From: a delta proteobacterium ML8_F1
GTDB lineage: Bacteria; Bacillota; Clostridia; Peptostreptococcales; Acidaminobacteraceae
Direction of reading: 5' to 3'
Assembly (NCBI GenBank): GCA_002029975.1
Contig: LQBE01000042.1
Location: 1 to 40,904, forward strand
Length of the DNA stretch: 40,904 bases
Shown one piece after another: positions 26,685-28,770 of this stretch; positions within the stretch are counted from its first letter, which is position 1; each line of letters starts with the position of its first letter. The position numbers were made by a program, and so were the translations under genes. The notes beneath the pieces were generated by a model. That model ran no database searches. It saw nothing but the letters and a program-made list of their open reading frames with translations, and was not told the origin of the DNA.

Positions 26685-27011
26685 GTGGAGGCTGCCTGGA
26701 AGGTCTGGATTCAGGATGAAGGTAAAAAAATATTTGGGAGGGGTCCCCGGGATTTGCTGCTCAAAATTGAATCTCTGGGTTCCATCAACAGTGCGGCTAA
26801 AGCCATGGACATGTCCTATTCAAAGGCCATCAAGCTCGTTGCCACTACGGAAAAGGCCATGGGGATAACCCTTCTGGAAAGATCCATCGGCGGGACCGAG
26901 GGAGGCGGATCGAAGCTGACGCCCCAGGGGAAGGAACTTGTTGAAAAATTCACTCGTTTCGAAGAGGCTTCCAGGGAAGCCGTAGAAAGGATTTACAGGG
27001 ACCTGTTCTGA
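26685..27011 (+). CDS. ModE-type winged-helix regulator, DNA-binding domain only
   Basis: The 108 residues match the N-terminal domain of ModE, the molybdate-responsive repressor: GPRDLLLKIESLGSINSAAKAM and SYSKAIKLVATTEKAMG for the helix-turn-helix, then LLERSIGG and GGGSKLTPQGKELVEKF for the wing. The molybdate-binding (MOP) domains of full ModE are absent, so ligand sensing, if any, must come another way. GTG at 26685 follows GGAGGG and lies after the -10; a longer reading from 26649 would overlap the promoter. It leads a cluster with an NTPase, an ECF-like protein and a MocA-like enzyme. The fold is clear; targets are unknown. Confidence 0.82.
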   Translation: MEAAWKVWIQDEGKKIFGRGPRDLLLKIESLGSINSAAKAMDMSYSKAIKLVATTEKAMGITLLERSIGGTEGGGSKLTPQGKELVEKFTRFEEASREAVERIYRDLF

Positions 27012-27061
27012 TTTTTTTTACCAATCGTTATACAACAAAAAAGACAACGGGGGGGGACGCC

Positions 27062-27610
27062 TTGAAGAACATTGTCATTACAGGACCCATCGGCTGTGGA
27101 AAAACAACGGCAATCAAGAAACTCATTCAGGCGTGTTCTCTGAAGGTGGGGGGGTTTAGAACTGTCCCCGTTTTTGAAGGAAAGCGGCGAAGGGGCTTCG
27201 TTATTGAAGATTATCTGGCCGGTTCCCCGCTCCTGGATCACAGGGGGACGGGGATGATCGGGGAATTCACTGATCAAAACAGACTGGTTGCCAATACGGC
27301 GGCTTTTGAAACTCAAGGGGTCGGAATCATTGAAAAGGCATTAAAGAATCACGCTGTTCTGGTTTTTGATGAGGTGGGATTTCTTGAAAGAGAGGCCCGC
27401 GCATTTCAAAACCTCGTCATGACCTGTCTTGAAAGAGAAGATCTTCTGGTAATCATGGCTTTGAAGCAAAGAGAGGGAGAGTTTTTTCTGGACAGGATAC
27501 GCCATCATGAAAAAACTGAGCTTTTTACAATGACACCCGATGACAGAGATGAGGTATTTGAAGATATTCTTGCCTTTTGCAAGAGGAGGTATTTTAATGA
27601 AAAGTCTTGA
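27062..27610 (+). CDS. THEP1-like P-loop nucleoside-triphosphatase
   Basis: This 182-residue protein starts MKNIVITGPIGCGKTT with a P-loop at residues 8-15. It has GGFRTVPVFEGKRRRGFVIED, and VLVFDEVGFLE as a Walker B strand, the pattern of the THEP1/COG1618 NTPase family (shared with archaeal and clostridial members near cofactor genes). Family enzymes hydrolyse NTPs in vitro; the cellular role is unsettled. The start is TTG after a run of G. Its last 14 bases overlap the next gene, so the two are tightly coupled. Kinase activity on an imported compound is possible, but that is inference from the neighbour. Confidence 0.78.
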   Translation: MKNIVITGPIGCGKTTAIKKLIQACSLKVGGFRTVPVFEGKRRRGFVIEDYLAGSPLLDHRGTGMIGEFTDQNRLVANTAAFETQGVGIIEKALKNHAVLVFDEVGFLEREARAFQNLVMTCLEREDLLVIMALKQREGEFFLDRIRHHEKTELFTMTPDDRDEVFEDILAFCKRRYFNEKS

Positions 27611-28118
27611 ACTCAAGGAAATAATACTTATTGCAATCCTGGCGGCGCTGTCTATTGTGACAAAGCCCTTGGTTACGAACCTTTCGGCGGTGATGGTGGG
27701 TTCCTTCGGCATTCCCAACGGGGTCGTGGGGGGAATAATCTACATGATGTGGCTGTCCCTGATTTTCAGACTGGTCAGCAAGCCCTTCGTAGTGTTGGGA
27801 TTCACAGTGCTGCAGGGGATTCTGGCTATTATGATTATGGGAATGCCTCCCCTGGGACTGGTCTCCTATGTCGCTAGCGGCATAGGAGGGGAAATGGTGC
27901 TGTTTCCCTTGAGAAAAAAGCACCAGCTTTTCGTGAACATGCTGGCAGGTGCCGTTGCCAACAGCGTCGGTGCCGTCGCCGTCTACTTCCTGTTTTTTTC
28001 AAAGAATGTTGATCCGCTGCCTTTGGTGGTGACTCTCTCCTTTTTCAGCGGCAGTCTCAGCGGCATTTTGACCACTGGTATTTACAGCCGGCTGAAAAAT
28101 CACTGGCAGACAGCTTAG
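27597..28118 (+). CDS. ECF transporter S-component-like membrane protein (YkoE-like)
   Basis: This 173-residue protein has five or six membrane segments and a basic C-terminus. The opening MKSLELKEIILIAILAAL, the following FGIPNGVVGGIIYMMW segment and the late FFSGSLSGILTTGIYSRL resemble the layout of YkoE-type thiamine/HMP substrate-binding subunits of ECF transporters. The shared energising (A and T) subunits are not in the window, so it would depend on a general ECF module elsewhere. ATG at 27597 sits behind AGAGGAGG. No thiamine riboswitch is possible in the space upstream, because the gene overlaps the NTPase. The substrate is unknown. Confidence 0.7.
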   Translation: MKSLELKEIILIAILAALSIVTKPLVTNLSAVMVGSFGIPNGVVGGIIYMMWLSLIFRLVSKPFVVLGFTVLQGILAIMIMGMPPLGLVSYVASGIGGEMVLFPLRKKHQLFVNMLAGAVANSVGAVAVYFLFFSKNVDPLPLVVTLSFFSGSLSGILTTGIYSRLKNHWQTA

Positions 28119-28119
28119 G

Positions 28120-28144
28120 GACCCGGGATACGGGTCTTTTTTTT
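28120..28144 (+). terminator. intrinsic terminator after the ECF-like gene
   Basis: GACCCG (28120-28125) pairs with CGGGTC (28131-28136) around GGATA, and eight T follow (28137-28144). It starts 1 base after the stop codon. Confidence 0.9.
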
Positions 28145-28145
28145 G

Positions 28146-28154
28146 TGGTACAAT
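28146..28154 (+). promoter_or_regulatory. extended -10 promoter of the MocA-like gene
   Basis: TGGTACAAT (28146-28154) is an extended -10 directly after the terminator T run. A start near 28161 fits the ATG at 28177. Confidence 0.55.
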
Positions 28155-28176
28155 GGGGCCAGAGGGGGGTGATGCC

Positions 28177-28770
28177 ATGGTAAGTGCGGTAATCCTCGCT
28201 GCGGGGAAATCAGAACGTTATGGTCGGAACAAGCTGATGCTGCCCCTGGGCGGGAAGAAATTGATTGAAGTGATTCTTGAGACGGTGGCTGCCGTCGGGT
28301 TTGACGAGGTGGTGATGGTTTACGGGGAGGAAATTGTAGGAAAAATGGCACAAAAATTTCAAATCAGGACAGTCTTGAACCCGGAAAGCAACCTGGGACT
28401 CTCAAAATCTGTCAAATATGGTATCGAAGCCCTGAAAAGGGAGACTGAAGGGATTATGTTTTTTTTAGGTGATCAGCCGAACATCAAGAGAGAAATCATT
28501 CTGGAACTGATAGAAGTTTTTTTGGAGGACCCGAAAAAAATCGTTGTGCCGACCTGCAACCGTGTGCCGGGGAACCCGGTGATTTTTCCGCAAAAATACA
28601 GTAAAATACTCACTGGGCTCACTGGGGATCAAGGGGGAAAGCAGATTATCGCCAATCTGGACCAGGGGGTGGTTTACCACCGGGTGCAGGACGGGGATTT
28701 CTGCACGGATATTGACACCCCCGAAGATTATGAAAAATTTCTCTATAAAAAAATGTCGGAAGAAGTCTGA
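28177..28770 (+). CDS. MocA-like (molybdenum cofactor cytidylyltransferase-type) nucleotidyltransferase
   Basis: The 197 residues form a GT-A type NTP transferase: VILAAGKSERYGRNKLMLPL for NTP binding, FFLGDQPNI for the metal site, GNPVIFP, GDQGGKQI and the closing DIDTPEDYEKF. This combination fits the MocA/YgfJ group, which adds CMP to the molybdenum cofactor of hydroxylases such as xanthine dehydrogenase, rather than MobA (GMP). ATG at 28177 is chosen because the -10 covers the upstream ATG at 28153. The ModE-type regulator upstream supports a molybdenum link, but no molybdenum hydroxylase is in the window. Other sugar- or cofactor-type substrates remain possible. Confidence 0.8.
   Translation: MVSAVILAAGKSERYGRNKLMLPLGGKKLIEVILETVAAVGFDEVVMVYGEEIVGKMAQKFQIRTVLNPESNLGLSKSVKYGIEALKRETEGIMFFLGDQPNIKREIILELIEVFLEDPKKIVVPTCNRVPGNPVIFPQKYSKILTGLTGDQGGKQIIANLDQGVVYHRVQDGDFCTDIDTPEDYEKFLYKKMSEEV

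Follow-up and report, generated by a model that had tools for sequence, protein, structure and literature searches.

A ModE-type regulator, THEP1-family NTPase, ECF S component and MocA-like gene as a candidate module for molybdenum cofactor acquisition

Introduction

Which compound is handled by a gene set that joins a ModE-type regulator, a P-loop NTPase, an ECF-type S component and a MocA-like nucleotidyltransferase, and which enzymes would such a set serve? The question is raised by four plus-strand genes on contig LQBE01000042.1 of the bacterium deposited as delta proteobacterium ML8_F1 (Acidaminobacteraceae, Clostridia), where they are flanked by genes for malic enzyme and methylmalonyl-CoA mutase. 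The whole stretch of DNA that was analyzed, 40,904 nucleotides long, is called the window here. A sequence-only reading of it had linked the genes to a molybdenum or tungsten cofactor and to small-molecule uptake coupled to the NTPase, and had called the cluster uncharacterised.

Bacteria that use molybdenum cofactor (Moco) are usually assumed to synthesise it, and MobA-MobB pairs or MobAB fusions serve the synthesis of molybdopterin guanine dinucleotide. How intact Moco gets across membranes is an open question that has been raised for C. elegans (PMC9793310). No earlier description of Moco uptake or salvage in bacteria was found in our literature search, which was mostly limited to open papers and is weak evidence of novelty.

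Results

Four genes with recognisable domains

All four open reading frames are real and are arranged as the sequence-only reading had described. The features of the cluster are as follows.

26685..27011, + strand: ModE-type winged-helix regulator, DNA-binding domain only (108 aa, GTG start)
27026..27049, no strand assigned: ModE-box-like palindrome CGTTATACAACAAAAAAGACAACG, 24 bp, 13 bp upstream of the NTPase start
27062..27610, + strand: THEP1/NTPase_1-family P-loop NTPase (182 aa, TTG start)
27597..28118, + strand: ECF-type S component, PF09819 (173 aa)
28117..28139, + strand: terminator-like hairpin behind the S gene (9-bp stem, then a T-run)
28177..28770, + strand: MocA-like molybdenum cofactor nucleotidyltransferase (197 aa from ATG 28177)

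The stop of the NTPase gene and the start of the S gene overlap by exactly the 14 bases reported earlier (27597-27610). The regulator matches the PF00126 HTH with 31.9 bits (cut-off 26.6) and TIGR00637 with 61.6 bits (E 5.5e-17), which is under the cut-off of 98.5; a domain search of its 108 aa did not find a C-terminal molybdate-binding MOP/TOBE domain, in agreement with the previous description of a ModE domain without a molybdate-sensing part. The NTPase is a clear member of PF03266 (110.3 bits, cut-off 23.9, E 1.2e-31) and carries the Walker A motif GPIGCGKT and the motif FDEVGFLE (DE..GxxE); G..GK of Walker A, DE and E109 are invariant in 20 relatives. By profile, with full-length alignment, it belongs to the same family as THEP1/NTPCR (1ye8, 2i3b), for which the literature found reports no molybdenum role; an AlphaFold model from single-sequence input reached a pLDDT of 48, too low for the model to be of use. 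The S component matches PF09819 with 27.9 bits (cut-off 25.2), its structure model is mostly helical (pLDDT 67), and a PDB sequence search with it returned no match.

MocA matches TIGR03310 over its full length with 185.0 bits (E 1.4e-54; cut-off 186.45) and PF12804 with E 4e-36. Its start is likely the ATG at 28177, behind GAGGGGGG, rather than position 28153. Transcription of MocA apart from the NTPase-S pair is plausible from the sequence, because the terminator-like hairpin parts it from the S gene. The promoter of its own that had been claimed for MocA is thereby partly borne out: the hairpin and a -10-like TACAAT, common to the window and its congener G001, speak for it, but a -35 element was looked for ahead of the gene and not found.

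The exact four-gene order is rare, having been seen in the genus of the window; another genome, G004, has three of the four genes adjoining a hydroxylase, in the order ModE, NTPase, S, then the FAD, FeS and Mo subunits and then a purine permease, all on one strand. In congener G001 the same cluster is kept with the NTPase gene as a pseudogene (L046:9225-9812; frameshifts and a deletion). Since this pseudogene lies beside intact ModE, S and MocA genes, the NTPase is dispensable at least in G001. This would agree with an NTPase that a genome can do without when it has moa genes.

A ModE-box-like site precedes the NTPase gene

The 50-bp gap between the regulator and NTPase genes contains the palindrome at 27026-27049, which is the top ModE-box match of the 41-kb window (14/18 positions); five simulated windows contained no match of at least 14/18. 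The pattern scanned, CGTTATAY-N8-RTATAACG, which we take to match the E. coli ModE operator, differs from the window palindrome by two mismatches. A palindrome is present at the equivalent place in G001, G004, G083, G103, G211 and G075, and G001 retains the window's site within the same regulator-NTPase gap. Perfect copies of the pattern occur upstream of the NTPase gene in G004 (by 29 bp), G211 (27 bp) and G075 (30 bp) and, in G007 and G168, ahead of FecCD or SBP genes; copies with one or two mismatches precede the NTPase gene in G103, G083, G013 (contig C56) and the window. Over all scanned loci, 28 sites with at most three mismatches were found against 13.7 expected, and those with zero to two mismatches almost all precede NTPase_1, FecCD or SBP genes, in several genera. 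At two loci, L081:9876-10441 (G013) and L146:9908-10491 (G075), an NTPase_1 gene with a perfect or near-perfect ModE box has no molybdenum gene nearby.

NTPase_1 genes lie among hydroxylase accessory genes

Searches with PF03266 covered 61 relatives and, from the class, 392 genomes, 28 of which were positive, and the neighbourhoods of NTPase_1 were read by eye and by seed searches; when the NTPase sequence alone served as query, a scan of the genome contigs yielded no relative. XdhC, MocA, ModE, YqeC or a hydroxylase subunit (Mo/FeS/FAD) lies within 8 kb of NTPase_1 at 30 of the 49 loci, or at 38 when a FecCD-type importer or SBP is also counted. This is the tie to molybdenum hydroxylase accessory genes that the sequence-only reading had raised. 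Independent scattering of the genes, which it had named as a ground for refutation, was not observed, and XdhC, MocA, ModE, hydroxylase subunits and FecCD are steady neighbours of the NTPase. Some NTPase_1 genes have no molybdenum gene nearby, several of these loci being on short contigs, and in many genomes a FecCD-type importer replaces S beside NTPase_1.

Domain fusions join MocA to NTPase_1 (L154 and L157, one genus), MocA to a ModE HTH (L063, L057), ModE to YqeC (L078) and NTPase_1 to a methyltransferase (L051 and L135; genomes G043 and G103). We rejected a chance neighbourhood on the basis of the fusions and the conserved operator. An operon of G103 combines NTPase, ModE, hydroxylase subunits, purine permease, YqeC, MocA, XdhC and YqeB. 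Co-localisation of the type known from selenium-dependent molybdenum hydroxylase (SDMH) gene sets is seen in G103 (YqeB, YqeC, XdhC), in G008 and G012 (XdhC, hydroxylase) and in G004 (hydroxylase only). Judged by these neighbourhoods, the fusions and the G103 operon, the NTPase is best seen as a putative accessory protein of molybdenum hydroxylases.

Class-I methyltransferase genes occur near 12 of the 49 NTPase_1 loci, and within molybdenum clusters class-I SAM methyltransferases beside or fused to NTPase_1 were seen at L062:9278-10066, L051:8461-9648, L135:8945-10156 and L139:6003-6830. In G008 and G012, a 196-aa membrane protein with no Pfam match lies between the hydroxylase FAD subunit and the XdhC-NTPase genes (L064:4576-5166, L091:16929-17519) and is possibly another importer component.

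The S component has a sister clade with Moco riboswitches

Besides the window species, a scan with the S alignment found just three that have an orthologue belonging to this lineage, with 85% (G001), 65% (G004) and 39% (Acidaminobacter sp. JC074, G025) identity to the window protein. In G004 the S gene is flanked by the NTPase gene on one side and by the genes for the three hydroxylase subunits on the other. The G025 gene and MocA are convergent; ModE lies some 7 kb from them and, judging by coordinates, a hydroxylase some 13 kb. In G083, which is from another taxonomic family, a PF09819 protein of more remote kinship is encoded in the order ModE-NTPase-methyltransferase-S. In a tree, the five molybdenum-linked S proteins split from nine homologues of 27-34% identity with branch support 90/98, and a profile comparison of the five with the sister set gave a probability of 99.5 and E 1.7e-22.

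The sister set comprises ten loci (L066-L075), in which S belongs to complete ECF operons with A, A' and T; examples are L071:6423-10412 and L070:4764-19176. These operons encode SUOX-fold (PF00174) proteins and a phosphodiesterase/nucleotide-pyrophosphatase-like protein, about half of the loci carry an APH/RIO-like kinase, and at seven of the ten MobB (PF03205) follows the T component. The Moco riboswitch RF01055 lies directly upstream of seven (L069, L070, L071, L072, L073, L074 and L075; E 2.7e-5 to 3.7e-16); it was not found at L067 and L068, and L066 is cut at its start. MobB, the riboswitch or both are present at all ten loci. Hydroxylase genes were found near none of the ten sister S genes, which form a small, non-random control for the NTPase_1 neighbourhood counts. 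Kinship of the S component with a known vitamin S component would, by the terms of the earlier reading, likewise have refuted it; no such grouping was seen, and the sister clade is Moco-riboswitch-controlled and MobB-linked. Both of the refuting outcomes that it named have thus failed to appear.

Since this riboswitch is also found upstream of plain molybdate transporters (PMC2408646), it alone cannot identify the cargo. The gene content would fit a cofactor-type cargo, as it combines an importer and a pyrophosphatase-like enzyme with a fold that binds cofactor on the outer side of the membrane and, on the inner side, MobB and a protein resembling kinases. We regard the sister ECF operons as candidate cofactor salvage operons. 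Neither a Moco riboswitch in the window cluster nor a TPP riboswitch near its S component was found.

Hydroxylase-bearing relatives without Moco synthesis genes

The comparison set consisted of 39 relatives with hydroxylase genes (PF02738). Eight of them, all draft genomes, are without MoaA, MoaC and MoeA (G004, G006, G007, G012, G020, G030, G031 and G043). Their completeness is 94-100%; if incompleteness were the sole cause, one locus should be missing from about 1.8 of the 39 genomes (p 0.0003). NTPase_1 is present in 8/8 of these genomes versus 13/31 of the others (p 0.004, uncorrected for kinship). The class sample added 25 genomes with NTPase_1, of which ten are without MoaC, and in five of those ten (G103, G303, G359, G418 and G430) a hydroxylase or XdhC gene lies beside or near the NTPase gene, in the case of G303 as inferred from congeners. 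Without molybdopterin synthesis and molybdenum insertion such genomes have little use for molybdate, yet hydroxylase, MocA, NTPase and importer are kept. Our main inference, which rests on draft genomes, is that what they import is the finished cofactor.

The window genome makes Moco

The genome of the window has its own Moco operon (mogA, two moeA-type genes, moaA and moaC), which adjoins a tungsten-type AOR; moaC and AOR are separated by a Moco riboswitch. A different contig (C27; L085, L086) carries its two molybdenum hydroxylases, within a purine-degradation-like cluster, and also holds the only, weak, XdhC match of the genome. A search for MobB (PF03205) gave no match in this genome. Shared ECF A-A'-T genes are located in the ribosomal operon, between rplQ and truA (C46). 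Because Moco is made de novo, import is not essential here, and by analogy with B12 the module would supplement synthesis.

Discussion

The molybdenum link of the cluster is strong: ModE-box site, hydroxylase accessory neighbours and MocA fusion all agree with the cofactor handling first proposed. Uptake coupled to the P-loop NTPase, the other half of that proposal, is supported as well, with phosphorylation or gating as candidate reactions of the NTPase; taken as a whole, the proposal holds in part and its direction is right. On balance we hold it probable, if only just, that the four genes form a molybdenum-regulated module that acquires Moco and loads it with nucleotide for enzymes of the xanthine dehydrogenase type. 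In this reading a molybdopterin-type compound enters through S, and NTPase_1 stands in for MobB next to MocA. The ModE-type protein would bind the palindrome at 27026-27049 and so control the NTPase-S operon. The S component, together with the housekeeping ECF A-A'-T module, would import the molybdopterin-type compound, either Moco or a dephosphorylated or nucleotide-free derivative. As a kinase or carrier, the NTPase may then work with MocA to process or pass on this compound, taking the place where MobB is found next to related S components. MocA would form the cytosine dinucleotide cofactor, leading to hydroxylase maturation. Points against this reading are the de novo Moco synthesis of the window genome, the NTPase pseudogene of G001, the small number of species with close S orthologues, and the NTPase_1 genes that have no molybdenum gene in their vicinity. 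The general form of this proposal, a bacterial Moco salvage in which Moco or some derivative of molybdopterin enters through an ECF S family (in other genomes through FecCD) and is turned into the dinucleotide form by MocA together with a THEP1-type protein, is offered tentatively, as something that may well exist and falls a little short of probable.

Other cargoes were weighed against the cofactor. FecCD-type molybdenum importers exist, for example H. influenzae MolABC, and an importer of this type takes the place of S beside NTPase_1 in many genomes. Together with the molybdenum-type regulation, the ModE box and the Moco riboswitches known ahead of molybdate transporters (PMC2408646), this would suit an S component that imports molybdate, tungstate or a molybdenum chelate, with NTPase and MocA serving de novo synthesis only. 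We consider it unlikely, as molybdate would be of no evident benefit to the relatives that lack MoaA, MoaC and MoeA, which nevertheless keep the module, MocA and hydroxylase (in G004 S, NTPase and hydroxylase), and as the SUOX-fold, nucleotide-pyrophosphatase-like and MobB proteins of the sister operons are easier to reconcile with a pterin-nucleotide cofactor than with an oxyanion. S could also import the hydroxylase substrate, a purine or other heterocycle, with NTPase_1 as a MobB-like partner of MocA that is unrelated to transport; in G004 the S gene is indeed followed by hydroxylase genes and the gene for an NCS2 purine permease, and the hydroxylases of the window genome lie in a purine-degradation-like cluster. 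This seems improbable to us, because the NCS2 permease already covers purine import in such clusters and the sister S components occur with MobB and the Moco riboswitch and away from hydroxylases (0/10).

A metallophore for molybdenum uptake, on which NTPase_1 and a methyltransferase or importer would act, is given a similarly low probability. The methyltransferases near 12/49 loci and fused in G043 and G103, the resemblance of FecCD/SBP importers to siderophore/heme systems and the DUF364 'heavy-metal chelation' genes in some clusters would agree with it; however, no chelator biosynthesis enzymes were recognised in the clusters, and the window cluster contains neither methyltransferase nor FecCD. 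PF09819 also includes YkoE, and from this shared membership S might be taken for an ordinary YkoE-like thiamine/hydroxymethylpyrimidine transporter that came to lie among molybdenum genes by chance. We rejected this reading on gene context and the absence of a TPP riboswitch and think it very improbable: S recurs with NTPase, ModE, MocA or hydroxylase in G001, G004, G025 and G083, and its sister clade is under Moco riboswitch control.

Most parts of the cluster are recognisable in a known accessory set, so that its description as uncharacterised in kind is not supported. The SDMH papers list YqeB, YqeC, MocA/YgfJ, XdhC and ModE as accessory genes and describe an E. faecalis island with a ModE-type gene between XdhC and a purine permease; an NTPase is mentioned in neither paper, and an ECF S component is absent from the lists in the passages considered here (Haft and Self 2008, PMC2276186; Zhang et al. 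2008, PMC2432076). The window set shares with those sets the MocA-family gene, and NTPase_1 lies within a full YqeB/YqeC/XdhC/MocA operon in G103, whereas the window genes stand apart from hydroxylases. As in MobA-MobB, a P-loop protein is paired with a MobA/MocA-type nucleotidyltransferase, to which it is fused in one genus, but NTPase_1 (PF03266) is of another P-loop family than MobB (PF03205). The solitary S component with a shared A-A'-T module in the ribosomal operon resembles group II ECF vitamin transporters, from which this S subfamily differs by its tie to molybdenum genes. The sister S operons share the riboswitch with the Moco regulon (RF01055; PMC2408646), in contrast to the window cluster with its ModE-type box.

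If bacteria import Moco, molybdopterin would be an exchangeable cofactor like B12, which bears on purine breakdown in anaerobic communities. THEP1-family proteins would acquire a pathway role, and bacteria without moaA, moaC and moeA could operate enzymes of the xanthine dehydrogenase type with cofactor obtained by scavenging. With the gene sets, the operator and the relatives that lack moa genes, the salvage idea is directly testable.

Two further ECF arrangements were noted. At the end of a G056 contig, NTPase_1 overlaps the gene for an ECF T component (L058:8453-9690), which is another NTPase-ECF pairing. On C27 of the window genome, a second ECF cluster (L160:1058-11001) encodes an S-like protein, a fused ATPase and a T component beside a very long repeat protein.
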